Source: Ruania zhangjianzhongii
GTDB taxonomy: Bacteria > Actinomycetota > Actinomycetes > Actinomycetales > Beutenbergiaceae
Direction: 5' to 3'
DNA: 64,000 nucleotides
NCBI RefSeq assembly: GCF_008000995.1
Contig: NZ_CP042828.1
Location: 558,001-622,000 of the forward strand
In this document: piece by piece, positions 30,778 to 44,825 of the stretch
How the letters are laid out: every line of letters starts with the position of its first letter
How positions within the stretch are numbered: position 1 is the stretch's first letter
The notes under the pieces: generated by a model
Told to the model about the DNA's origin: nothing
The model's database searches: none
Seen by the model: only the letters and a program-made list of their open reading frames with translations
Translations under genes and position numbers: made by a program

Positions 30778-31860
30778 TCACTCGGGTCGAGTCAACACCT
30801 CGAGGAACTCGTGGTTGACGAAGAGGACCTCCCGGCCGACCTTGACGTCGCTCAGGAGCCCCGCTGCCACCAGGGCGTGCAGCCACGACGATGCGGTCTG
30901 GCGCGAGACGCCGCATCTTTCCGCGACGTTGTTGATGCGGCAGTAGGGCTGCTCGAGGAGGATGGCCAAGAACTGTGCATCTCGGCCGCCCGCAGTGGCT
31001 ACGCGAGCTCGCTCGGCAATCTCCTCCTGGCACGCGCGGATGGCTTCGATCTTCCGTATCGTCGACGCGGCAGAGTCGCGAATGACGTCAAGCATGTAAA
31101 GGACCCATTCGATCCAGGCGCCGTCAGCTGTCACGGCTCGCAGGAGTCGGTAGTAGTCGCTCTTGCGGGCGATGATGGCCCGGGAGAGGTACAGGATCGG
31201 ATCGTGCAGCAGACCGGCCTCGATCAACATCAGGATGTTGATGATGCGTCCGGTGCGCCCGTTACCGTCGTGGAACGGGTGGATCGCTTCGAACTGGTAA
31301 TGGGCCACTGCCATGCGCACGAGCGGGTCGAGATCACGCTCAGCGTGGATGAAGCGCTCCCAGTCCGAGAGCTTCTCGCGAATGCGGTCGGCCCCTTCGG
31401 GCGGGGCGTACAGCACCTGCCGAGTACTGGGGTTCGCGATCCGCGTGCCGGGTACGGCGCGCACCGCCCTCTCCCGACCCTGCAGCTCGGAGCAGATGCG
31501 AGCCGCAGTCGCAGACGTGAGCGGCCGGCTTCGGATCGAGGCGACCCCTGTGAACAGCGCGCTGCGGTAGCGCAGCGCCTCCTTGGTGGCGGGATCTCCC
31601 CCGCCGGAACCGACGTGCATGAACAACTCATCCGCAGTGGTCACGATGTTCTCGACCTCTGAGCTGGCCTGTGCCTCGAGCAGCGGGACGGCGTGGATCA
31701 GGATGTGTGGATTCGGCAGCAGCTGACCGGCCTGGGCGAGCGTGGCCAGCGCCGTCCGCGCTTCGATGGTGGCCTTGAGAACGGGTTTTGGTTCGAGGTC
31801 GAGGCCGGCGGGCGGTAGTGGTGGCAGGTCGTTGAACGGGAGGTCAGGGCTCCAACTCAC
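30778..31860 (-). CDS. Fic-family adenylyltransferase with inhibitory helix and winged-helix tail
   Basis: A 360-residue Fic protein. The active-site motif is HPFHDGNGRTGR, which transfers AMP from ATP to a target hydroxyl in characterised relatives. An N-terminal SSEVEN (Ser-x3-Glu-Asn) matches the inhibitory helix of class II Fic proteins, where the Glu blocks ATP binding. The C-terminus carries a winged helix-turn-helix (INNVAERCGVSRQTASSWLH). GTG 31860 has GGAGGAG 7 bases upstream. It is solitary, with no antitoxin neighbour, consistent with self-inhibition in cis. The upstream 60 bases are unusually AT-rich for this window. Confidence 0.88.
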   Translation of the reverse strand: MSWSPDLPFNDLPPLPPAGLDLEPKPVLKATIEARTALATLAQAGQLLPNPHILIHAVPLLEAQASSEVENIVTTADELFMHVGSGGGDPATKEALRYRSALFTGVASIRSRPLTSATAARICSELQGRERAVRAVPGTRIANPSTRQVLYAPPEGADRIREKLSDWERFIHAERDLDPLVRMAVAHYQFEAIHPFHDGNGRTGRIINILMLIEAGLLHDPILYLSRAIIARKSDYYRLLRAVTADGAWIEWVLYMLDVIRDSAASTIRKIEAIRACQEEIAERARVATAGGRDAQFLAILLEQPYCRINNVAERCGVSRQTASSWLHALVAAGLLSDVKVGREVLFVNHEFLEVLTRPE

Positions 31861-33855: not shown

Positions 33856-34908
33856 TCACACCCCGGTGGAGCTCCGGGTGACCAGCTCGGGTTGCACCAG
33901 GATCGGTTCGGTGGGTGGCGGATCGTCGCCACGGATCCGCTGCAGCAGCAGCTCCACGGCGGTGCGGCCCACCTCTGCGGCCGGGAGCCGCACTGTGGAC
34001 AGCGGCGGATCCAAGAACTCGGCGAACGGGTAGTCCCCGAAACCGACCACGAACGTGTCGTCCGGACACCGCAGGCCGCGTTCGCGCAGCGCCCGATACA
34101 ACCCGAGCGCAAAGTAGTCGTTGCCCACCACGAAGGCATCGGGCCGATGGCCTCGGGAGAGCAGGTCCACGGTCATCCGGTAGGCATCCCCTGCCTGCCA
34201 CGGAAGGACCACCCGGTCCTGGCGGCGGGTGGGCACCATGAGAATCTGACTGTCGTCACAAGGCAATGACGCCTCGGTGAGCGCATCGCGAAAGCCCTGG
34301 ATCCGTTGATGGATCGTGGTGATCGTCAGGTCCTCCTCGAGCATCACGATCGAGCGCGCACCCTGGGAGATCACATGCGCGGTCGCGGCGTGGGCGCCGG
34401 CGTAGTTGTCCGTGGCCACAGTGTCGACCGCCAGGTCGTCGAGCCGGCGGTTGACCACCACGAACGGCATCCCGGCGCGAGCCACCTGGCGCCACGGATT
34501 GGTGGGCCCCTGCACGGGCACCACGATCACGCCGTCCAGACCGGACTGGATGACGTTCTCCGCAGCGGCGAGCTCGCGCGCCGGCGACTCCTCGCTGAGG
34601 AACAGGACGATGTGGTACCCCTCCTCGGCGGCGCGGAGCTCGATCGCACTGATCAGCTCGGCGTAGAACGGGTTGGAGACGTTGGTGATGACCAGCCCGA
34701 TCGTGCGATGGCTGCCCAGGACCAGCGAGCGGGCGTGCACGTTCGGCACATAGCCAAGGCGTTCTGCGGCTTGCCTGATCCGCTCGCGGGTCGCCTCGCT
34801 CACCCCCGACTGGCCCCGCAGGGCACGCGAGACGGTGTTCGCGGACAGGCCGACGTCGGTCGCGACGTCCTGCAAGGTGCGTCGCCTGCGCGGTACGTGC
34901 TCTGCCAT
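33856..34908 (-). CDS. LacI-family regulator of the sulfatase/ABC locus
   Basis: A 350-residue LacI/GalR regulator, last gene of the minus-strand operon. ATG 34908 was chosen because the DNA-binding domain starts here (RTLQDVATDVGLSANTVSRA) and a GAGGGGG stretch precedes it; the open frame runs further upstream only as a shadow of the sulfatase gene. The effector domain begins TIGLVITNVSNPFYAELISA. It lies 17 bases after the sulfatase stop. Palindromes in the divergent promoter region about 3 kb away are candidate targets. Confidence 0.85.
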   Translation of the reverse strand: MAEHVPRRRRTLQDVATDVGLSANTVSRALRGQSGVSEATRERIRQAAERLGYVPNVHARSLVLGSHRTIGLVITNVSNPFYAELISAIELRAAEEGYHIVLFLSEESPARELAAAENVIQSGLDGVIVVPVQGPTNPWRQVARAGMPFVVVNRRLDDLAVDTVATDNYAGAHAATAHVISQGARSIVMLEEDLTITTIHQRIQGFRDALTEASLPCDDSQILMVPTRRQDRVVLPWQAGDAYRMTVDLLSRGHRPDAFVVGNDYFALGLYRALRERGLRCPDDTFVVGFGDYPFAEFLDPPLSTVRLPAAEVGRTAVELLLQRIRGDDPPPTEPILVQPELVTRSSTGV

Positions 34909-34925
34909 CCTGGCCCCCTCCTTGA

Positions 34926-36437
34926 TCAGCTGTCCTCGCGTGGGGCCGTACTCGGGCGGTAGCTGGAGTCGAGTGTCTTCTGCGACTCCGGTCCGTGGAA
35001 CGCCGCAACCCCGGGGAGCCCCACGATATCGACCTGGCCCCGTCCGGTGATCGCTTGGGTGCGGCCATCGCGTTTCGGGTCCGTGTATCGGTCGAACCAC
35101 TCTTCGAGCTGTCGGCGCAGCTGCGCGGCCTGTTCGTCGCGGTGGTCTCCGGCCGGGTCCCACACCCGCTGGTCGGCGAGAAGGTTGACGCGTTCTCCCG
35201 GATCATGCTGCAGGTCGTAGAGCTCGTGCGGACCGTAGGGGTACCGGTGCACGTACTTCCACCGGCGGTTCCGGATCATCCGCGTGGGTCCGAACTCGTC
35301 AAAGATGACCACGGGGCGGTCGGTGAGGGCAGCACCGCCCTCGAGAGCGGTGCGGAAGCTGCGGCCCGGAAGGTCGGCTGGTACTTCGTGCCCCAGGCCG
35401 ACGAGATCGAGCACAGTGGGCATCACGTCGTAGCCACTGAGCATCTCTTCGACGACGTGGCCCGCCGGGATCCGTCCAGGGAGCGTGGCAACGAATGGCA
35501 CCTTGACGGACGTGTCGTACATGTTCTGTGGAAAGGTGGCGTTCCCCTTGCCCCAGATGCCGTGATGGCCGCAGTTGAAGCCGTTGTCGCTGGTGAAGAT
35601 CACCAGGGTGTCCTCCTCCAGACCCAGCTCGTGCAGGTCCGCGCGCAGCCGCCCGACCTGCCGGTCCAGTGCCGTGACCGCGGCGAAGTAGCCCTGCAGC
35701 TCGTCGCGAACGGTGACCACCGGGCGGTCCGTTGAGGCGTTCTGCTCGGAGTTGTCGAGCTCGATCGGGTGAGCGGGGGCCCAGGGGTGTCGAGGTTCTT
35801 GGGGGCAGGAGTCGAAAACGCAGTCGGCGTAGGAGCTGACGAGATCGGCGGGATGCTGGTCCACCCATGGACTGTGCGGTGCGGTGAATGTGACCCACAG
35901 GTGGAACGGCCGCTGGTCGGCGGCCCGCTCGGCGAGGAAGGCGGACGCGTCGTCGGCGAGCACGTCGGTGAGGTACCCCTGGGTGCGTACCAGCTCACCG
36001 TTGCGGTACATCTCGGCGTCGTTGTACCGCCCGCCGCCCGAGGGGTGCGCGAACCAGTGCTCGTGCCCGTGCTGGGGATGCGGGCTGTCGCCGAGATGCC
36101 ACTTCCCGCTCAGCCCACAGGAATAGCCGGCGGCGGCGAGCACATCCGTGGTGGTCAGCTCGTCCTCGAGGTACCGGATCGCGCGGTCACCGCGCCCGTT
36201 GCCGGACCGGATCCAGTCCTGCACACCGTGCCGGGAGGGAATCTGCCCGGTCAGCAGGGACGCACGCGAGGGTGAACAGACCGGTGACGTGCAGTAGAAC
36301 TCGGTGAACCGCACTCCCTCGCGCGCCATGGCGTCGATGTGCGGTGTGCGGATCTCGGAGTTTCCGTAACAACCCAGGCCCCAGACCGCCAGATCATCGG
36401 CGACGATGAACAGGACGTTGGTCCGGGGCTGGGTCAT
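34926..36437 (-). CDS. Type I sulfatase, apparently cytoplasmic
   Basis: A 503-residue formylglycine sulfatase of the alkaline-phosphatase superfamily. The N-terminal metal site is FIVADDLAVWG, the formylglycine motif is CSPSRASLLTG (Cys-x-Pro-Ser-Arg), and a second metal site is IFTSDNGFNCGHHG. There is no signal peptide, so the substrate should enter the cell still sulfated, matching the ABC importer across the divergent promoter. ATG 36437 is where homology begins. No sulfatase-maturing enzyme (FGE or anSME) is in the window. Substrate class (sugar sulfate, choline-sulfate-like or aryl) is not settled. Confidence 0.9.
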   Translation of the reverse strand: MTQPRTNVLFIVADDLAVWGLGCYGNSEIRTPHIDAMAREGVRFTEFYCTSPVCSPSRASLLTGQIPSRHGVQDWIRSGNGRGDRAIRYLEDELTTTDVLAAAGYSCGLSGKWHLGDSPHPQHGHEHWFAHPSGGGRYNDAEMYRNGELVRTQGYLTDVLADDASAFLAERAADQRPFHLWVTFTAPHSPWVDQHPADLVSSYADCVFDSCPQEPRHPWAPAHPIELDNSEQNASTDRPVVTVRDELQGYFAAVTALDRQVGRLRADLHELGLEEDTLVIFTSDNGFNCGHHGIWGKGNATFPQNMYDTSVKVPFVATLPGRIPAGHVVEEMLSGYDVMPTVLDLVGLGHEVPADLPGRSFRTALEGGAALTDRPVVIFDEFGPTRMIRNRRWKYVHRYPYGPHELYDLQHDPGERVNLLADQRVWDPAGDHRDEQAAQLRRQLEEWFDRYTDPKRDGRTQAITGRGQVDIVGLPGVAAFHGPESQKTLDSSYRPSTAPREDS

Positions 36438-36445
36438 TGCGGCGG

Positions 36446-36769
36446 TCAGCTCTTCAGGGCCACGTAGATCCGGACCTTGACCGAGCCGGATGCGACGCTT
36501 CCGCGGATGCGCAGCCAGTGGCCGAACTCGCGCACCGGCCAGCTGGTCAGCTCGCCGGTCGTCTGATGCACCTCCTCCAGGTCCACCCAGGTGAGCCCGT
36601 CGGGGGAGACCTGGGTGGCGAGCTCGACCTGGGGCGCTCCGTCGCTGGTCAGCACCTGGAAGAACCAGCGGGCTTCGCGCGCCCACCCGGTCTCGAACGG
36701 TTCGGTGGCGAAGTCACCGGAGAGCGTGACGTTTCGCTCCAGGATCGCGGTCTGGGATTGCAGCATCAT
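36446..36769 (-). CDS. Small beta-rich conserved-looking hypothetical protein of the sulfatase operon
   Basis: A 107-residue protein I do not recognise. ATG 36769 (or the next codon, 36766) follows the previous stop by 5 bases and the stop lies 8 bases before the sulfatase start, so it is an operon member. The sequence alternates short hydrophobic strands (ATEPFETGWAREARWFFQVL, VELATQVSPDGLTWVDLEEV, KVRIYVALKS) with no cysteine, signal peptide or membrane helix, suggesting a small beta-sandwich. It could act with the larger orphan upstream. Confidence 0.6.
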   Translation of the reverse strand: MMLQSQTAILERNVTLSGDFATEPFETGWAREARWFFQVLTSDGAPQVELATQVSPDGLTWVDLEEVHQTTGELTSWPVREFGHWLRIRGSVASGSVKVRIYVALKS

Positions 36770-36774
36770 ACGAA

Positions 36775-37740
36775 TCACCAATCGGCAGAGATGACAACGG
36801 AGTCGAGGTAGAGGAAGTTGCGCACCCCGGAGAGGGTGCGGACGGAGAAGTAGAAGTTCAGCAGGTTGTCGAGAGACTCGTACGGTTCGTCGTAGGCGGG
36901 CACGGGGACGTCGCTCATGTCGATCAGCCGGTCGTTGAGCTGGAACTCCACGTTCGTCCGGGTCTCGGTGTCGATGACCCACCGCAGGTAGTGCCAGTTC
37001 ACCTTCGTGGGCACCTCGTTGAAGCACATCTCGATCGGCTCGCCGAGGTAGCGCCAGTCATCGGGGTTGGGCGCGGTGAAATCAGCCGCGTACGGGAGGG
37101 CGAACTTTCCCTCGAGGTGCTCCTTCGGCGTCGGCTCGGTGACCAGCGGATAGCTGAGCCGGCGCACCAGGTTGCCGTCGGTGTCGGTGTTCTGGAACCG
37201 GGCCACGGTGTGATAGCGGATCCCGCCGTCACCGCACAGGTCGGTCGCCACGGTGAACGCACCGAACTGCGCCTCGGACGGGTGCAGGTTTCCGTCCCAC
37301 TCCACGCCGCCGTACTGGTCGTCAGACTCCTCGCCGCCCAGCTGGGCCTCAGCCTTGTAGGTGAGATACGCCTCGATCTGCAGTCGGCCGCGACCGGCCA
37401 TGGTGAGCCGTCGGATCGCGGTCGAGGTGTGCCCGGGATACGGGCGGGTGGCGAGCTTGAGCGAGTAAGTGCCAGTCATCGCGCCGTGCGTGCCGGTGTC
37501 GAAGAAGGTCGCGTTGGACAGCTGCGGCGGACGGAAGTCGCGCATGTGGGCATCCACGGTGTCCAGATCGCCGCGACCGTTGAAGTTGCCGATCAGCTCG
37601 GTCCACCCGTTCGTGCCCTCGTTGAAGTCGTCGAGGGTGAGGATCCGCGGCAGCGGATTGAATTTCGAGAGCCGGACGTCGGAGGCGCGGATGGCGGTGC
37701 GCATCGCCGAGGTCAGGGCAGCGGTGTCGACCGAGGTCAC
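36775..37740 (-). CDS. Beta-sandwich (LamG/jelly-roll-like) protein of unknown function
   Basis: A 321-residue protein opening the minus-strand sulfatase operon. GTG 37740 has AAGGAG 8 bases upstream; ATG 37782 is an alternative. The sequence is rich in aromatic beta strands (GTYSLKLATRPYPGHTSTAI, YHTVARFQNTD, VNWHYLRWVIDTETRTNVEF, NFYFSVRTLSG), like concanavalin-type laminarinase/lectin sandwiches. I see no catalytic motif and no signal peptide. It may bind or act on the imported carbohydrate-like compound. I could not assign it to a named family. Confidence 0.6.
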   Translation of the reverse strand: MTSVDTAALTSAMRTAIRASDVRLSKFNPLPRILTLDDFNEGTNGWTELIGNFNGRGDLDTVDAHMRDFRPPQLSNATFFDTGTHGAMTGTYSLKLATRPYPGHTSTAIRRLTMAGRGRLQIEAYLTYKAEAQLGGEESDDQYGGVEWDGNLHPSEAQFGAFTVATDLCGDGGIRYHTVARFQNTDTDGNLVRRLSYPLVTEPTPKEHLEGKFALPYAADFTAPNPDDWRYLGEPIEMCFNEVPTKVNWHYLRWVIDTETRTNVEFQLNDRLIDMSDVPVPAYDEPYESLDNLLNFYFSVRTLSGVRNFLYLDSVVISADW

Positions 37741-37805
37741 CTGGTTCACTCCTTGCTCGCCCGCTGGGGGCGTAGGACTCATACCGGCGGATGCCGGAAC
37801 AGCAA

Positions 37806-37985
37806 CATTAGCGCTAATGCTTGGTGATTGGCAAGGGTGGTGGCTCGACGCGCGATTGGTGGCGATTACTGCATGACCTCGGCGGCCTGAAAACGTATAG
37901 AGGCAGGTCAGAGCCATAGTTTGCAGATCCTGTTGACCTTCGTCGGCTCGGGTGCCAGACTGCGTGAACGCTAATGTTAATGTTT
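37806..37985. promoter_or_regulatory. Divergent promoter region with LacI-type palindromes
   Basis: CATTAGCGCTAATG (37806-37819) is a perfect 14-base palindrome. AACGCTAATGTTAATGTT (37968-37985) repeats the CGCTAATG half. TTGACC (37934-37939) and CAGACT (37957-37962) at 17 bases form a fair promoter toward the ABC operon, with the second site over the transcription start. The region is AT-richer than its surroundings. The LacI regulator encoded at 33856-34908 is the natural candidate to bind both sites and control both divergent operons. Confidence 0.65.
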
Positions 37986-38008
37986 TGAGAGGCGTTCGAG
38001 GGAGAACA

Positions 38009-38047
38009 TGACGCGCTTGCTGAAGCACCCGGTCGAGGAGGCCTGAT
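38009..38047 (+). CDS. 12-residue leader peptide coupled to the ABC operon
   Basis: GAGGGAG at 37999-38005 precedes ATG 38009, which opens a 12-codon frame (MTRLLKHPVEEA). Its TGA at 38045-38047 overlaps the permease ATG (TGATG). The permease ribosome binding site GAGGAGG lies inside the leader codons for Glu-Glu. The arrangement suggests translational coupling; no run of a single amino acid that would indicate classical attenuation is present. Confidence 0.45.
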
Positions 38048-38972
38048 GGGTGCCTATCTCGTCCGGAGGCTGGTGTTCTCCGTCTTCATCCTCTGGGGTG
38101 CGGTGTCGATCATCTTCGTGGTGCTCCGGCTGATCCCGTCCGATCCGGCGCGGCTGATCCTGGGCTCCGACGCCACCGAGGCCGAGGTGGAGGTGCTGCG
38201 CGATCAGATGGGACTGAACGAGCCGCTGATCGCCCAGTACTGGACCTACGTCCGAGACCTCGTCCGGCTCGACTTCGGTGACTCCTACCGGCAGCAACGA
38301 GACGCCTTCGAGCTGGTCCTCGAGCGCCTGCCGGCCACGTTGGAGCTGGCCATCGTCGCCCTCGTCATCGCACTGGTGACCGGCGTCCTGCTCGGGGTCC
38401 TGGCCGCGCTGAAGGTGAACAAGCTCACCGACCGAATCGTCTCGGTCGCCTCGCTCCTGGCGCAGTCGCTGCCGTCCTTCTGGATCGGCATCGTGTTCAT
38501 CCTGGTCTTCTCCCGGGGCCTCCAGGTGCTGCCGAGCGGCGGCACCGGATCGCCGGCGCACATGGTGCTGCCGGCGGTCACGTTGGCGATGCCCATGCTC
38601 GCGATCCTGATCAGGATGACCCGCAGTGGACTGCTGGAGGTCATCCACGAGGGCTACATCCAGACGGCCCGTGCGAAGGGGCTGTCCGAGCGAGTGGTGA
38701 TCTTTCCGCATGCGATCCGCAATGCACTGATCCCGATCGTGACCATCGTCGGCCTGCAGTTCGGTGGACTGCTGGCCGGCTCGGTGATCGTGGAGATGGT
38801 GTTCAGCTGGCCGGGCATCGGGCGGCTGCTCATCGAGTCGATCGGCCAGCGGGACTACAACGTGGTCCAGGCCGCGATCCTGGTGATCGCCGCCGGGTTC
38901 GTGTTCGCGAACCTCCTGGTCGACATCCTCTACGGCTACCTCGACCCGCGAGTGAGGTTGGTATCCCGATGA
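38046..38972 (+). CDS. ABC transporter permease (DppB/OppB type)
   Basis: A 308-residue inner-membrane permease of the peptide/nickel/oligosaccharide family with six predicted helices. It starts MGAYLVRRLVFSVFILWGAV and has LPATLELAIVALVIALVTG and the EAA loop (TARAKGLSERVVIFPHAIRN) that contacts the ATPases. It is followed by its partner permease with a 4-base overlap. Members of this family import peptides but also many oligosaccharides and opines, so the substrate is not restricted to peptides. Confidence 0.92.
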   Translation: MGAYLVRRLVFSVFILWGAVSIIFVVLRLIPSDPARLILGSDATEAEVEVLRDQMGLNEPLIAQYWTYVRDLVRLDFGDSYRQQRDAFELVLERLPATLELAIVALVIALVTGVLLGVLAALKVNKLTDRIVSVASLLAQSLPSFWIGIVFILVFSRGLQVLPSGGTGSPAHMVLPAVTLAMPMLAILIRMTRSGLLEVIHEGYIQTARAKGLSERVVIFPHAIRNALIPIVTIVGLQFGGLLAGSVIVEMVFSWPGIGRLLIESIGQRDYNVVQAAILVIAAGFVFANLLVDILYGYLDPRVRLVSR

Positions 38973-39871
38973 CTACAGAGACTGCAGGTGTCGAGCGTGA
39001 GGTCAGCCGGTCGTTCGCGCGGCTGAGGCGCCGTTCGTCGAACACCGCCGGCCGCCGGCGGATCATCGTCTGCCTGATCATCGTGGCCGGCTACGTCCTG
39101 GTCGCGATCGTGGGGCCGATGCTGGTGGACTACAACCCGGTACAGACCTACACCCAGGACCGGCTGCTGCCCCCGGGGAGCACCACCTCCCAAGGGATAG
39201 CCCTGCTCGGGACCGACCAGGTGGGTCAGGACATCCTGAGCCAGATGATGCTCGGTGCACGGGTCTCGATCACTGTCGGCGCCGGGACGTTGCTGCTGGC
39301 CGGCATCATCGGCGTCACCGTCGGACTGATCGCGGGATACCGCGGTGGCTGGGTCGACGCCGTTCTGATGCGGCTGGCTGACATCCAGCTCTCCTTCCCG
39401 TCGATCCTGCTCGCCATCCTGATCGCGGCCGTGGTCGGCCCGAGCGTGGTGAACGTGATCGTGGTGCTGGCGATCACCAACTGGGTGACGTTCGCTCGGG
39501 TGACGCGCAGTCAGGTGCTGACCGTGAAGAACCGGGAGTACGTGGACGCGGCGCGGACTCTCGGTGCCGGGCACCTGCACCTGGCGATCCGGACCATCTT
39601 CCCGGCCTGCCTAGCGCCCATCCTGGTCGTCGCCACTGTCGAGCTGGGGCACGTCATCCTCGCCGAGGCCTCCCTGTCGTTCCTCGGACTCGGCGTCCCC
39701 ACGGATGTCCCGAGCTGGGGTACCACGATCGCCAACGGCCGCTCCTATCTCGGCGACGCGTGGTGGATCTCCACACTGCCGGGGTTGGCCCTGGCCGGTC
39801 TGGTGCTCACCTGCGGGCTGCTCGGCGATGCGATGCGAGACCGGTACGACCCGAAGCTGAGGAGCATGTGA
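38969..39871 (+). CDS. ABC transporter permease (DppC/OppC type)
   Basis: A 300-residue second permease of the same importer. A cytoplasmic basic N-terminus precedes the first helix (IIVCLIIVAGYVLVAIVGPM). The periplasmic LLGTDQVGQDILSQMMLGAR and the EAA loop (YVDAARTLGAGHLHLAIRTI) are typical of DppC, as is the late ASLSFLGLGVPTDVPSWG. It overlaps the upstream permease by ATGA and shares one base with the next start, so expression is tightly coupled. Confidence 0.92.
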   Translation: MTTETAGVEREVSRSFARLRRRSSNTAGRRRIIVCLIIVAGYVLVAIVGPMLVDYNPVQTYTQDRLLPPGSTTSQGIALLGTDQVGQDILSQMMLGARVSITVGAGTLLLAGIIGVTVGLIAGYRGGWVDAVLMRLADIQLSFPSILLAILIAAVVGPSVVNVIVVLAITNWVTFARVTRSQVLTVKNREYVDAARTLGAGHLHLAIRTIFPACLAPILVVATVELGHVILAEASLSFLGLGVPTDVPSWGTTIANGRSYLGDAWWISTLPGLALAGLVLTCGLLGDAMRDRYDPKLRSM

Positions 39872-40866
39872 TGGGCGAGGCGCTGCTCGCGATCGACAGT
39901 CTCCAGGTGGAGTTCGCCACCCGGGACGGGCGGATCCGCCCGCTCGACGGGGTGAGTCTGGAGATCGCCGCCGGTGAGACCGTGGCGCTGCTCGGCGAGT
40001 CGGGCAGTGGAAAGTCGGTCACTGCGCAGGCGATCATGGGGTTGCTGCCGCAGCCGGCCGGGCAGATCGTCGGCGGGCGGATCGCCTTCGATGGGCACGA
40101 GCTCACCGCGCTGGCACCGGAAAAGGTGCGCGCACTGTGCGGCACCCGGATCGCGATGATCTTCCAGGACCCGCTGAGCTCGCTCAACCCGGTATTCCGG
40201 GTAGGTGACCAGGTGGCGGAGCCGTTGCGGCGTCGGCTCGGGATGGGACGGCGCGAGGCGAGGGGCCGCGCCCTGGAGCTGCTCCACCGGGTCGGGATCC
40301 CGGACGCTGAGCACCGGATGCAGCACTACCCGCACCAGTTCTCGGGCGGGCAGCGGCAACGGATCATGATCGCGATGGCGCTCACCCTCGACCCCGATCT
40401 GCTGATCGCCGACGAGCCGACCACCGCGCTGGACGTGACGGTGCAGGCGCAGATCATGAACCTGCTGCGAGAGCTGCAGGACGAGCGGGGAATGGCGATC
40501 ATGCTGATCACCCACGACCTCGGCGTGGTGGCCGATGTCGCCTCTCGGGCCGTCGTGCTCTACGCCGGCCGGGTGGCCGAGCAGGGCCCGATCCGGGAGG
40601 TCTACGACCACTCCGCACATCCCTACACCGAAGGTCTGCTGGCCTCCATCCCGCAGTCGGAGCAGGGCAGAGGCCGGTTGACGCCGATCACCGGGGTGCC
40701 GCCGAACCCGGTCGCGTTCCCGCCGGGCTGCCGCTTCCACCCGCGCTGCCCCTACGCCCAGGACCGGTGCCTCGAGGACCTGCCGGAGCTCCGGCACCCC
40801 GAGGGCTGGGCCGCGGACCAGTCGGCGGCGTGCCACTTCACGGAGGAGGTGCTCGGTCGTGGCTGA
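39871..40866 (+). CDS. ABC transporter ATP-binding protein (DppD/OppD type)
   Basis: A 331-residue ATPase with Walker A GESGSGKS, signature SGGQRQR and Walker B LLIADEP, the switch His in LITHDLGVV. The C-terminal oligopeptide-type extension has the Cys cluster [16 protein letters not shown], which in OppD/DppD relatives may bind an iron-sulfur cluster. ATG 39871 overlaps the previous stop; the open frame extending further upstream is a shadow. It pairs with the following ATPase. Confidence 0.92.
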
Positions 40867-41677
40867 ACCGCTACTGCGAGTACGTGACCTGGTCACCACC
40901 TATCCGATCCGCTCGGCGCTGCTGCGTCGAACGATCGGTGAGGTGCGCGCCGTCGACGGCGTGAGCTTCGACATCCCCCGCGGCCAGACTGTTGGTCTGG
41001 TGGGCGAGTCCGGGTCCGGCAAGTCCACCCTTGCCCGGACGGTGGTCGGCCTGGAACGGGCGGACGCGGGCACGATCGAGTTCGACGGGCATGACCTCGT
41101 CGGCCTGTCGCCGAAGCAGATGCGGCCGCTGCGCCGGGACATCCAGATGGTCTTCCAGGATCCGTACACCGCACTCAACCCGCGGCTGACCGTGCGGGAG
41201 ATCCTGTCCGAGGCCTGGCGTATCCATCCCGACCTGTTGCCGGCGAAGGACTGGGAGGAGGAGGTGCGCCACCTGCTGGACATCGTCGGGCTCGACCCGC
41301 TCTATGCCGACCGCTACCCGCACCAGTTCTCCGGCGGGCAGCGCCAGCGCATCGGGATCGCGCGTGCGCTCGCGGTCCGGCCGAAGCTCATCGTCTGTGA
41401 CGAGGCGGTCTCCGCTCTCGACGTCTCGGTGCAGGCACAGGTGCTGAACCTGCTCGACGATCTGCAGGCCGAGCTCGGCCTGACGTACCTGTTCATCGCG
41501 CATGACCTGTCGGTCGTGCGGCACATCAGCGACGAGGTGATCGTGATGAACCACGGTGAGGTCGTCGAGCACGCGTCGACCGAGCAGCTGTTCGCCCATC
41601 CGCAGCACGACTACACGAAGACCCTGCTGGCCGCCGTCCCGGTGGTACGGCCCTGGAGCTCGGGGAGCGCAGCATGA
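40859..41677 (+). CDS. ABC transporter ATP-binding protein (DppF/OppF type)
   Basis: A 272-residue second ATPase. It has Walker [10 protein letters not shown], signature SGGQRQR, Walker B LIVCDEAVSALD and the switch in FIAHDLSVVRHI. It lacks the long Cys-rich C-terminus of typical OppF proteins (about 310-330 residues), ending shortly after the helical domain. GTG 40859 lies within the end of the preceding gene, an 8-base overlap. It completes a four-subunit importer with the binding protein at 43302-44825. Confidence 0.9.
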   Translation: MAEPLLRVRDLVTTYPIRSALLRRTIGEVRAVDGVSFDIPRGQTVGLVGESGSGKSTLARTVVGLERADAGTIEFDGHDLVGLSPKQMRPLRRDIQMVFQDPYTALNPRLTVREILSEAWRIHPDLLPAKDWEEEVRHLLDIVGLDPLYADRYPHQFSGGQRQRIGIARALAVRPKLIVCDEAVSALDVSVQAQVLNLLDDLQAELGLTYLFIAHDLSVVRHISDEVIVMNHGEVVEHASTEQLFAHPQHDYTKTLLAAVPVVRPWSSGSAA

Positions 41678-42318
41678 CGGTGATCATCCACCTCGTCCGG
41701 CACGGCGAGGCCGTGTGGAACGCTGAGGGCAAGTACCAGGGTCAGGCCGACTCCGGACTCACCGCTCTCGGTCGCCAGCAGGCGCAGAGCGCCGCAGCGT
41801 GGCTGCAGGAGCTGCCCCGTCTCGACGGCGTGGCGTGCAGTGATCTGCCCCGTGTGCGGGATACCGCCGCGCCCTTCCTCGCGGCAACGGGACAGCAGGC
41901 GAGGATCGATGCGCGGCTGCGGGAGATCGATGTCGGGACCTGGGCCGGGCGCACCTTCGGCGACGTCGCTCGAGACGAACCGGACGTCGTCGCCGCCGTA
42001 GCCCGGGGTGAGGACCTGCGCCGTGGCGGCGGAGAGACGTTCGCCGAAACCCGCCACCGGGTGACGTCCGCACTGGACGACCTCGCCGCCGCGCACGAGA
42101 GCGGTGCCGTGCTGGTCGTCTTCAGCCATGGCGGCCCGATCCGGCTCGCTGCGGCGGCAGCGCTGGGACTGCCCAGTCCTGGCCACCACCGGATCGCCTC
42201 CCCGGGCAACTGCTCGGTCACCACCCTGACCTGGGGACCGCCGGCCCTGCTCGGCTACAACTGCCCGACCGAGCGGGGCGCTGGTCCCGCCCCAGCCCGC
42301 CGAGAGGAGTCAGCATGA
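41674..42318 (+). CDS. Histidine phosphatase (phosphoglycerate-mutase-like) family protein
   Basis: A 214-residue branch-1 histidine phosphatase. The nucleophile is in IHLVRHGEAVWN, followed by GQADSGLTALGRQQAQ; the second catalytic His is in VFSHGGPIRLAAAA. It hydrolyses phosphomonoesters on small molecules in the cytoplasm. It overlaps both neighbours by ATGA. With the EEP phosphoesterase next to it, it suggests that the imported compound or its product carries phosphate. Confidence 0.88.
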   Translation: MTVIIHLVRHGEAVWNAEGKYQGQADSGLTALGRQQAQSAAAWLQELPRLDGVACSDLPRVRDTAAPFLAATGQQARIDARLREIDVGTWAGRTFGDVARDEPDVVAAVARGEDLRRGGGETFAETRHRVTSALDDLAAAHESGAVLVVFSHGGPIRLAAAAALGLPSPGHHRIASPGNCSVTTLTWGPPALLGYNCPTERGAGPAPARREESA

Positions 42319-43094
42319 CACTGACCGCCACCACCTTCATCGCCCAGACCCACAATCTCTGGGGTGACCATGCCGCCGCGGAGCGTTCGGACTCGCTCGA
42401 GGCGCTCTACCGGCAACGCCAGCCGGACCTGCTCGCCACCCAGGAGCAGCGATCCTGGTCCCGCGACCTGATCGATGCCGCGATGCCTGAGCACGACCGG
42501 GTCCAGGACGACTTCGCCGGCTGGTCCACCCAGAGCTGCCTGTGGTGGCGCCGGGAGGCGTTCGAGTACCTCGAGCACGGTGCCGACGACGTCGGCATCC
42601 TCTCCCCGGATGCGCGCCTGTTCTGGGTGCGGCTGGCCACGGCCGCCGGGCCGGTGCTGCTCAGCACGGCTCATCTGACCTGGCCCGGTCACCCCCAGGA
42701 GCAGGAGAGCGGGGTCAATCAGCGCACGCCGCAGGCGCGGGCGATCGTCCGGCGTCTCGCCGAGCTCAGCGGGAACGACGCCTGCCTGTTCACCGTGGAC
42801 ATCAACGACATCGGACCGCCGAGCTGGGAACTCGGCAACGGCGGCTTCCTGGACTCGTTCACGGCCCTCGGCCGGCACTCGCCGGTGACTCACCCGGTGG
42901 TCCCGAGCGGGTTTGCCGAGTCGATCGGCACCGGCCTGTCCCCACTGGCCTCACCCCGCAAGGCGATCGACTGGATCTTCCTGCGTGGGCCGGTCCAGGC
43001 GCGCGCCAGTGAGGTGGTCGAGTTCTACCACCGCGGCATCGCCCCCAGCGATCACTACCCCGTGGCCGCCACGCTCACCCTCACCCGGGACTAG
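42315..43094 (+). CDS. Endonuclease/exonuclease/phosphatase (EEP)-family phosphoesterase
   Basis: A 259-residue EEP-fold protein. It has the Asn and Glu metal sites (QTHNLWGDHAAAE, DLLATQEQ) and the terminal PSDHYPVAATLTL with the catalytic Asp-His pair. The internal motif usually read as GDFN is VDIND, a small departure. There is no signal peptide, so it should act in the cytoplasm, likely on a phosphodiester or phosphomonoester of the imported compound rather than on DNA. Its last codons are the source of the downstream 56-bp repeats. Confidence 0.8.
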   Translation: MTLTATTFIAQTHNLWGDHAAAERSDSLEALYRQRQPDLLATQEQRSWSRDLIDAAMPEHDRVQDDFAGWSTQSCLWWRREAFEYLEHGADDVGILSPDARLFWVRLATAAGPVLLSTAHLTWPGHPQEQESGVNQRTPQARAIVRRLAELSGNDACLFTVDINDIGPPSWELGNGGFLDSFTALGRHSPVTHPVVPSGFAESIGTGLSPLASPRKAIDWIFLRGPVQARASEVVEFYHRGIAPSDHYPVAATLTLTRD

Positions 43095-43289
43095 GCCCCA
43101 GGGCCGTTCCGGACACGATCACACACGCTCACCCTCACCCGGGACTAGGCCCGTTAGAGCAGTCCCGGACCCGATCCAACACGCTCACCCTCACCCGGGA
43201 CTAGGCCCGTTAGAGCAGTCCCGGACCCGATCCAACACGCTCACCCTCACCCGGGACTAGGCCCGCTAGAGCAGTCCCGGACCCGATCA
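43071..43289 (+). repeat. 56-bp tandem repeat (four copies) with hairpins
   Basis: Four tandem units start at 43071, 43125, 43181 and 43237. Each begins with ACGCTCACCCTCACCCGGGA and continues to a TAG, duplicating the 3' end of the EEP gene. The last three units are nearly identical. Each of them holds a perfect 8-base hairpin, CCGGGACT...AGTCCCGG (43139-43168, 43195-43224, 43251-43280). They lie between the EEP and binding-protein genes and may set differential expression within the operon. Confidence 0.9.
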
Positions 43290-43301
43290 AAGGAGATGAC
43301 G

Positions 43302-44825
43302 ATGAGAATGACCAGACGCCGTGCCGGACTCGCCGCGGCCTTCGTGGCCACGGCGCTCGCCGTGACCGGATGTACCACCACGAGCCAGGGCGGTGGTGGT
43401 GGCGATGACGTGCCACAGGAGGTTACCTACGTGCCGGCCTTCTTCCCGGTCTCGCTGGACCCGCACAACTTCCCCGCGGAGGAGGGGACGCAGGTCGCCG
43501 CCCAGCAGACCCTCGAGACGCTGGTCACCTACAACGACGGTGAGGCGGCTCCGCTGCTCGCCGAATCGTGGGAGTACTCCGACGACGAGCTCACCTTGAC
43601 CTTCACCCTGCGCGACGACGTGACGTTCAGCGACGGCAGTCCGTTCACCGCCGAGGACGTCAAGGCATCGCTGGACCGGCTGATCGAGCTGGACAAGGCG
43701 CTCGCTCCGTTGTTCGCCGAGGTCACCGAGACCCGCGCCGACGATGAGCACACCTTCTCGATCGTCACCAGCCAGCCGCTCGGCACCCTGCTCGCCTCGA
43801 TGTCGCTGGTGTTCATCGGCCAGGCCGACGCCATGGACGATGAGGCCTACTGGCAGGCTCCGATCGGTACGGGACCGTTCGTCGTCGACGACTACGTGGC
43901 CGACGATCACGTCACCTACTCCCGGAACGACGACTACTGGGGCGAACCGGCCCAGCTGGACTCGCTCGAGATGGTCAACATGCCCGAAGTCGCTGCCCGG
44001 ATGACCGCACTGGAGACCGGTGAGGTCGACGTGGTCTCCTCGATCCCACCGGACCAGGTGTCCAGCATCGAAGGGCAGGAGGGCATCGAGTTTACTCAGG
44101 ACCCCGGCTACCTGTATTACTTCATCTGGTTCAACAACAACGAGCCCCCGTTCGACGACGTTCGCGTGCGGCAGGCGATGTGGCACGCCGTGGACATCGA
44201 GGGCATCGTCGCCGACCTCTACGGCGAGGGCGCCACTCCCGCGGCCGCACCGATCCCGCAGGCCGCGTTCGGCGCCACCGAGAACGAGCCCTACTCCTAC
44301 GACCCGGAGCTCGCACGAGACCTGCTTGCCGAGGCCGGATATGCCGATGGATTCCAGACGTCGATGCACTGGCCACGGGAGGGCGGGCCGAACATCCGCT
44401 CGCTCGCCCAGGCGTTCATCTCGGCGTGGGCCGACGTCGGCATCGAGGTCGAACCCCTGGAGAAGGAGCGCGCTGCCTGGCTGGAGGACTTCGGTTCGAT
44501 GAACTGGGACCTGAACCTGCAGACGAACGCCACGGCCACCGGGGATGCCGACTTCACCCTGAACCGGCTCTACACCTGCGAAGCGGACCGCCTGGGCTAC
44601 TGCAACCCGGAGCTCGACGATACCCTCGCCCAGGCCCGCGCCTCGTTGGATCCGGACGAACGGCTCGAGCTTTACGCCCAGGCGAACGAGATCATGTGGG
44701 AGGACGCCCCGGGCATCTTCCCGGCCGACCTGATGAACAACCTGGCCTATCGCTCGCAGGTGCAGGGACTGGAGCTGCCGCCCACCAACCGGCCGTACTT
44801 CGCCTCGGTCTCGGTCGTGGAGTAA
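43302..44825 (+). CDS. ABC transporter substrate-binding lipoprotein (SBP_bac_5 / DppA-like)
   Basis: A 507-residue binding protein of the cluster C peptide/nickel/oligosaccharide type. ATG 43302 lies 6 bases after AAAGGAG; ATG 43296 is too close. Signal MRMTRRRAGLAAAFVATALA ends in the lipobox AVTGC (Cys24). The family motif appears as TLTFTLRDDVTFSDGSPFTA, followed by WGEPAQLDSLEM and FNNNEPPFDDVRVRQAMWHA. It is the last gene of the operon, placed behind the hairpin repeats, whereas in most such operons the binding protein comes first. Confidence 0.9.
   Translation: MRMTRRRAGLAAAFVATALAVTGCTTTSQGGGGGDDVPQEVTYVPAFFPVSLDPHNFPAEEGTQVAAQQTLETLVTYNDGEAAPLLAESWEYSDDELTLTFTLRDDVTFSDGSPFTAEDVKASLDRLIELDKALAPLFAEVTETRADDEHTFSIVTSQPLGTLLASMSLVFIGQADAMDDEAYWQAPIGTGPFVVDDYVADDHVTYSRNDDYWGEPAQLDSLEMVNMPEVAARMTALETGEVDVVSSIPPDQVSSIEGQEGIEFTQDPGYLYYFIWFNNNEPPFDDVRVRQAMWHAVDIEGIVADLYGEGATPAAAPIPQAAFGATENEPYSYDPELARDLLAEAGYADGFQTSMHWPREGGPNIRSLAQAFISAWADVGIEVEPLEKERAAWLEDFGSMNWDLNLQTNATATGDADFTLNRLYTCEADRLGYCNPELDDTLAQARASLDPDERLELYAQANEIMWEDAPGIFPADLMNNLAYRSQVQGLELPPTNRPYFASVSVVE

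Follow-up and report, generated by a model that had tools for sequence, protein, structure and literature searches.

We analyzed a divergent locus at positions 33856 to 44825 of a 64,000-nucleotide stretch of the Ruania zhangjianzhongii genome (contig NZ_CP042828.1, positions 558,001 to 622,000), referred to below as the window. Its two operons face away from a gap that contains LacI-type operator-like sites, and they recur together in other actinobacteria. The constant core of these loci is a pair of adjacent genes encoding a DUF6772 protein and a small beta protein, B109; a sulfatase gene is a genuine but optional partner. Our preferred reading, to which we give close to an even chance, is that the locus is one LacI-controlled catabolic regulon for a carbohydrate phosphodiester conjugate, probably with a pentose unit, that is sulfated in some sources. 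The locus is of interest for its DUF6772/B109 pair and for an operator-marked, recurring regulon of the sugar-phosphodiester type, not for desulfation, which an initial annotation of this DNA had put at the center.

All 11 genes listed in the initial annotation are present with open frames. The minus-strand operon runs in the order DUF6772, B109, sulfatase, LacI; the plus-strand operon runs PermB-PermC-AtpD-AtpF-HisP-EEP-SBP (38046-44825), its genes overlapping or closely spaced. The features of the locus are as follows.

33856..34908, minus strand: LacI-family repressor (PF00356 and PF13377).
34926..36437, minus strand: S1-type sulfatase, accessory gene (PF00884, E 1.3e-49; SGSH_C; no signal peptide by eye).
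36446..36769, minus strand: B109, small beta protein, partner of DUF6772 (directly downstream of DUF6772 in the other loci; AlphaFold model).
36775..37740, minus strand: DUF6772 protein, proposed cytoplasmic carbohydrate enzyme (PF20562, 413 bits).
37805..37820, no strand: LacI-type operator 1, ACATTAGCGCTAATGC (aligned palindrome, 5/5 Ruania-type loci).
37962..37983, no strand: LacI-type operator 2, weaker, near PermB (two overlapping 3-mismatch matches; aligned in relatives).
38046..38972, plus strand: Opp/Dpp-type permease B, PermB (PF00528; NCBIfam Opp2B, 356.4 bits, cut-off 350).
38969..39871, plus strand: Opp/Dpp-type permease C, PermC (PF00528, OppC_N).
39868..40866, plus strand: ATP-binding cassette (ABC) ATPase D, AtpD (PF00005, oligo_HPY).
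40859..41677, plus strand: ABC ATPase F, AtpF (named by position, sequence and recurrence in related loci, with no Pfam scan).
41674..42318, plus strand: histidine phosphatase branch 1, HisP (PF00300, E 1.1e-50).
42315..43094, plus strand: EEP-superfamily phosphoesterase, EEP (PF03372, E 1.3e-6).
43296..44825, plus strand: family-5 solute-binding lipoprotein, SBP (PF00496, E 1.2e-93; lipobox in the translation, by eye).

When the translations were read by eye, SBP alone among the locus proteins carried an export signal. This agrees with the initial annotation, which had called a binding lipoprotein (now seen with its lipobox and PF00496) and had placed the sulfatase and both phosphoesterases in the cytoplasm; by eye, none of these three shows an export signal. 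The host genome is 5.1 Mb and Ruania-type; among named organisms, R. gallistercoris (95% identical) and R. albidiflava (94%) have the closest DUF6772 relatives.

Loci for comparison were gathered from family genomes, class genomes, named contigs, and plasmid records, giving 42 distinct loci besides the window. Five of seven plasmid-record matches were used (H2 and H7 were left out of the counts), and L040 and L041, the same records as L031 and L030, were also left out. PF20562 was found in 9/24 family genomes and 16/394 class genomes; in a phylum-wide sample DUF6772 occurred in 1/396 genomes, the window's own. DUF6772 proteins at least 65% identical to that of the window defined 21 loci including the window, and 17 of these hold LacI, both permeases, both ATPases, HisP, EEP, and SBP (the window; L027 to L029 with extensions; L030 to L033; L042; L044; and L070 to L076). 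This full set occurs in four genus-level groups and, in addition, on two named Kribbella contigs (L042 and L044); among class genomes it was present in 8/394. L077 has the importer and SBP, and neither HisP nor EEP was seen there in 18 kb. In the other three loci (L043, L045, and L078), DUF6772-B109-LacI faces a metabolite:H+ symporter-like gene, not an Opp importer; the symporter-like genes score 366 to 390 bits, below the curated TIGR00883 cut-off of 443. A distant DUF6772 group (31%; six loci, L082 to L087) is again found with an Opp-type importer and SBP. The gene set recurs as a unit in other actinobacteria, the sulfatase excepted, and the two operons recur together, with operator-like sites common to both.

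Alignment of the divergent gap of five Ruania-type loci revealed a palindrome (ACATTAGCGCTAATGT-like) plus a weaker second site near PermB; in the window these lie between DUF6772 and PermB, at 37805-37820 and 37962-37983. The 37805 site is the sole match in the 5.1-Mb genome at ≤2 mismatches, and a reversed-pattern control gave 0. At ≤3 mismatches the window has three matches (two overlapping) versus 0.05 expected for a pattern that was drawn from these same loci. We scanned 22 loci with two patterns and with three shuffles per locus, which preserve base content only. Related sites were found in 16 of the 22, in every case upstream of DUF6772. In 15/16 loci the operator gap is faced by PermB, by an IclR gene, or by a symporter; L077 has no facing gene. 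Two separate sites were present in 14/16 loci; in L030 a single site passed the threshold, and in L077 the matches overlap at a single position. No operator match was found in the remaining six (G406, G405, G403, L043, L025, and L036). The alignment of L043 showed two weaker palindromes in the gap between DUF6772-B109-LacI and the symporter, and L045 and L078 have operator-like sites in the gap facing the H+ symporter-like gene. All 20 other loci with DUF6772 at least 65% identical have a LacI-family relative (46 to 90% identity). The placement of LacI-type operators between the divergent operons, the absence of a second copy of the main site from the genome, and the recurrence of related sites among the loci make both operons look like one LacI-controlled regulon. 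From its family and position, the window's LacI would bind the two candidate sites.

The initial annotation described two orphan beta proteins. The orphan label falls for the larger one, which is a full-length DUF6772 (413 bits versus a cut-off of 27, model positions 2-284 of 284), a family to which Pfam assigns no function; the beta fold is now predicted for the smaller one. AlphaFold modeled B109 as a compact all-beta domain (mean predicted local distance difference test score 84.5, predicted template modeling score 0.76, six sequences). Its resemblance to DUF6385 (PF19912) is weak, at 19.0 bits, below the cut-off of 26.8. Alignment placed B109 directly downstream of DUF6772 on the same strand in 42/42 other loci, 3 to 58 bases apart, and the adjacency is kept down to 30% DUF6772 identity, Alphaproteobacteria included. 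Nineteen DUF6772 positions are invariant in 43/43 sequences, and most are polar or charged: Y95, K98, R114, E126, D170, R178, R184, N187, N244, E245, K249, N251, W252, Y254, D260, D273, N298, D316, and S321 (residue numbers follow the 37749 gene model; counted from the 37740 start, each is three lower). This pattern favors, but does not prove, a catalytic or ligand site.

Paralogues of DUF6772/B109 are found beside sugar importers and enzymes of sugar catabolism. In four alphaproteobacterial loci, the neighbors of the pair are SDR or KR-domain genes, a regulator of the FadR/GntR type, and a gene of the enolase superfamily; a sugar ABC importer is in the same gene run in three of them and a few kilobases off in the fourth. 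Somewhat short of an even chance, in our estimate, is the proposal that DUF6772 and B109 are two subunits of an undescribed cytoplasmic carbohydrate-converting enzyme that Actinomycetota and Alphaproteobacteria share as the core of uptake regulons of several kinds, and that in the window this enzyme is joined to a new sugar-phosphodiester pathway of the Opp type in which intracellular desulfation is optional. When the profiles of DUF6772 and B109 were compared with laminin-G domains, with C14 (a large protein described below), and with each other, no match emerged (best probability 2.5%), and solved structures gave nothing significant for either protein (no match in one search; best E 0.66 and 0.75 in others). 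Neither DUF6772 nor DUF6385 is named in any paper of the literature searched, a collection that is not exhaustive. The window's genome has a third DUF6772-B109 locus (L026, G000:C2:4148101-4168100), where type I phosphodiesterase-family, esterase-like, ABC importer, laminin-G/calcineurin-type, and sulfatase-like genes stand side by side.

Taken together, the evidence from HisP, EEP, and C14 is the reason that the locus appears to handle a phosphoester. EEP residues N14, E44, H120, D162, N164, D246, and H247 are invariant in 17/17 sequences; we presume the roles of these conserved N, E, H, DxN, and SDH residues. The HisP RHG motif is present in 16/17 gene models, and the start of the 17th has probably been cut off. 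A class-wide count in which no more than six candidates per genome were scored gave EEP relatives (E ≤1e-20) in 9/394 genomes, and 8 of these 9 have the full locus. In the exception, G590, the genes near EEP encode another EEP, a SIS-domain protein, a metallophosphoesterase, and, by similarity, an ABC importer of the sugar type. The window's genome carries HisP and EEP as a pair a second time (G000:C2:657064-664213; L134 12064-19213); within about 5 kb of that pair are genes for a PhoD-like phosphatase, a sulfatase, and an importer that by similarity is sugar-type. In these two other places examined, therefore, a sugar-type importer again accompanies EEP. No solved structure matched EEP significantly (best E 0.9), and no EEP was found in the plasmid records.

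C14 adjoins HisP in 7/17 full loci (G557, G539, G616, G598, G406, G405, and G403), is found at a distance of ∼10 kb in G607, and is present in L036 as well. In G557 (L071) and G539 (L074) it is ∼1,110 residues long and apparently secreted. Pfam found lamin-tail domains in the one member scanned. C14 also has GD, GNHD, H, and GHxNG motifs, which we take to be those of calcineurin-type phosphoesterases. The phosphoesterase-like part of C14 had no Pfam match; a 34% relative of its C-terminal half, in L026, matches Pfam Metallophos.

Neighboring genes gave hints about the sugar. Three genomes, G406, G405, and G403, carry genes for an AraM-like dehydrogenase and an L-ribulokinase next after SBP (G406 scanned, the others by clustering). 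The L-ribulokinase scored 665.7 bits versus a cut-off of 583.25; the dehydrogenase, presumably an AraM, scored 150 bits to glycerol-1-phosphate dehydrogenase, below the cut-off of 413. A GH42 glycosidase precedes HisP in G607 and G581 (G581 scanned, G607 by clustering). L025, where the window's genome has DUF6772 a second time, encodes a sugar kinase of the FGGY family that falls short of all equivalog cut-offs, a 157-residue protein that is RpiB-like by eye, and, ∼6 kb away, an enzyme of the enolase superfamily. Because of these neighbors, found at few loci, a pentose or pentitol is the leading guess for the sugar.

From these gene contents we infer a substrate class and an order of steps. 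SBP and the Opp-type importer would take up a carbohydrate phosphodiester, EEP would cut the phosphodiester in the cytoplasm, and HisP would strip the remaining phosphate. The DUF6772/B109 pair, if it is an enzyme, would convert the freed sugar part, and the sulfatase would remove sulfate where the substrate carries it. LacI would sense an intermediate and control both operons via the paired operators. Several points weigh against this scheme. The carbohydrate-phosphodiester substrate is deduced from genes, with activities predicted from families; nucleases and phosphomonoesterases belong to the EEP superfamily too, and the substrate of HisP could be a housekeeping one. The three symporter loci (3/21) showed no gene for Opp, HisP, or EEP, and phosphoester chemistry is therefore not tied to DUF6772. 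PermB passes the Opp2B "nickel" model. AccA chains, from the agrocinopine system discussed below, match SBP at E 3.6e-30 to 3.1e-27, with 20 other sequences ranking higher. The sugar hints are also sparse: AraM-AraB is in 3/17 and GH42 in 2/17 full loci.

The initial annotation had the locus import a sulfated compound for cytoplasmic desulfation, with a signal-less CSPSR sulfatase as the key enzyme. Its description of the protein holds: the PF00884 match, the CSPSR motif, and the missing signal peptide were all seen, and no leader precedes the catalytic core in 7/7 aligned sequences (the window and six homologues, by eye). CxPxR is present, as are D14 D15, C54, R58, K112, H114, H188, D284 N285, and K394, which we presume to have metal or sulfate roles. 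The catalytic motifs are thus kept, and no leader is seen. The three closest homologues (G557, G539, and G598) keep all the motifs, and more distant ones differ in one or two. The sulfatase reaches no NCBIfam cut-off; for choline sulfatase (TIGR03417) it scored 195.1 bits versus 433.45. A member of the FGE-sulfatase Pfam family (254 bits) is encoded in the window's genome, which is no proof of formylglycine formation because the same family matches 4/14 control genomes. An alternative identity, an alkaline-phosphatase-superfamily phosphodiesterase or phosphonate hydrolase, was not favored, given sulfatase-type K-W-H and SDN motifs; these are the residues that we take to separate the two classes. 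For sulfatase in Ruania, and for sulfatase, ABC transporter, or phosphodiester in Kribbella, the literature searched contained no papers.

We regard desulfation as the defining step of the locus as unlikely, mainly from how the sulfatase is distributed. Excluding the genomes of the Kribbella contigs L042 and L044, and with at most three candidates scored per class genome, matches at E ≤1e-130 occurred in 5/394 class genomes. Four of the five hold the full locus: the window's (G000) and G539, G557, and G598, at 67 to 69% identity; the fifth, G577 (54%), has no DUF6772 match. This tracking, an FGE-family gene in the genome, intact motifs, and a sulfatase gene that in G557 and G539 overlaps by four bases the end of the C14 gene next to HisP all speak for the sulfatase, which we did not favor as a chance neighbor. 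Formal proof is lacking because only two bacterial families are involved, and G557, G539, and G598 share a genus, so the link amounts to about two independent cases. However, the sulfatase is intact within the locus in only 3/17 full loci (the window, G557, and G539), and in G598 a stray copy stands alone, 91 kb from DUF6772. Among family genomes, matches at E ≤1e-60 were found in the window's genome and in R. gallistercoris (a 51% paralogue elsewhere), leaving 22/24 with no copy. In the R. gallistercoris locus (L031, a metagenome-assembled genome), two pieces are left between B109 and LacI, an active-site stretch (38 bases, 87%) and the gene end (187 bases, 85%) running into LacI. R. albidiflava (L030) retains a 53-base piece of the sulfatase end (77%, E 2e-4 in a two-sequence comparison). 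These are remains of the gene, because a matching C-terminal tail is also present in the G557 and G598 orthologues. The remaining locus genes of both species are 81 to 96% identical to those of the window. The decay in these sister species was either one event or two. No sulfatase piece was found in L032 or L033; the remaining full loci were compared by tblastn only. An operon-borne sulfatase, then, need not define the substrate. Overall, the initial annotation is partly supported: the operons recur together, their gap holds operator-like sites, and the enzymes lack an export signal by eye; desulfation yields its central place to phosphoester cleavage and DUF6772/B109.

Two further explanations are each quite unlikely in our judgment. 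One is an Opp/Dpp peptide or nickel-chelate importer that acquired unrelated hydrolases, for which the PermB score and the closest solved relatives of SBP, which are dipeptide/YliB-type, can be cited. PermB is, however, the only subunit to pass an equivalog cut-off: PermC (255.4 versus 300) and SBP (212.1 versus 600) reach no NCBIfam cut-off, and AtpD is below the cut-off in the best 25 of 189 models (AtpF was left out of the scan). LacI-type operators, the recurring HisP-EEP-DUF6772-B109 partners, and the presence of DUF6772/B109 with sugar importers elsewhere also disagree with it. The operators also disagree with phosphate scavenging from organic phosphodiesters, in which DUF6772/B109 would be a lectin-like accessory and not an enzyme. 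That explanation accommodates two phosphoesterases without export signals, phosphoesterase-like secreted proteins nearby in several relatives, and PhoD near the second HisP-EEP pair, but neither HisP nor EEP was seen where DUF6772/B109 comes with a symporter or a sugar importer.

Elsewhere in the window, ARAGORN called a tRNA-Arg(tcg) at 31726-31810 (plus strand), antisense inside the start of a Fic-like frame (30778-31860, minus strand, named by eye). One of the two calls is probably wrong.

If the preferred reading of a sugar-phosphodiester regulon is true, a recurrent two-protein module of no assigned function gains a testable role as a carbohydrate enzyme. Known systems resemble the locus in part. 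The window's sulfatase shares PF00884, CSPSR, the Asp pair, and the KWH and SDN motifs with S1 formylglycine sulfatases (choline-sulfatase/SGSH-like) and differs from them in being under every NCBIfam cut-off, without an export signal, and accessory. Ugp with UgpQ imports glycerophosphodiesters through an ABC transporter and then cleaves them with a cytoplasmic phosphodiesterase, the same succession as is proposed here; unlike the window's proteins, Ugp is a CUT1-type importer and UgpQ a GDPD enzyme.

By analogy of gene content, the nearest working analogue is agrocinopine use. In the agrocinopine/agrocin 84 system (AccA-AccBCDE, AccF, AccG, and AccR), uptake is SBP-dependent and ABC-type, and agrocinopine A is a sugar phosphodiester that yields L-arabinose-2-phosphate (PMC4526662). 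That system combines an SBP-dependent ABC importer, an intracellular phosphodiesterase, a phosphatase, and a product-sensing repressor (PMC4526662); the window has in one cluster an SBP-dependent ABC importer, a predicted phosphodiesterase, a predicted phosphatase, and a repressor. In contrast, the available text of that report mentions neither DUF6772/B109 nor a sulfatase, and among solved relatives of the window's SBP, 20 sequences rank above AccA; AccF and AccG are likened to the window's enzymes by predicted role. In xanthosan use, likewise, a sugar phosphodiester serves as a nutrient that is taken up by a dedicated route and hydrolyzed inside the cell, with a TonB-dependent XanT and a 2H-phosphoesterase, XanP; no EEP enzyme is mentioned in the available text (PMC12807533). 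It shows that sugar-phosphodiester nutrition exists elsewhere, by other protein families (PMC12807533). If our reading is true, such nutrition, so far represented in these sources by two plant-associated bacterial systems (PMC4526662, PMC12807533), would extend to other actinobacteria.

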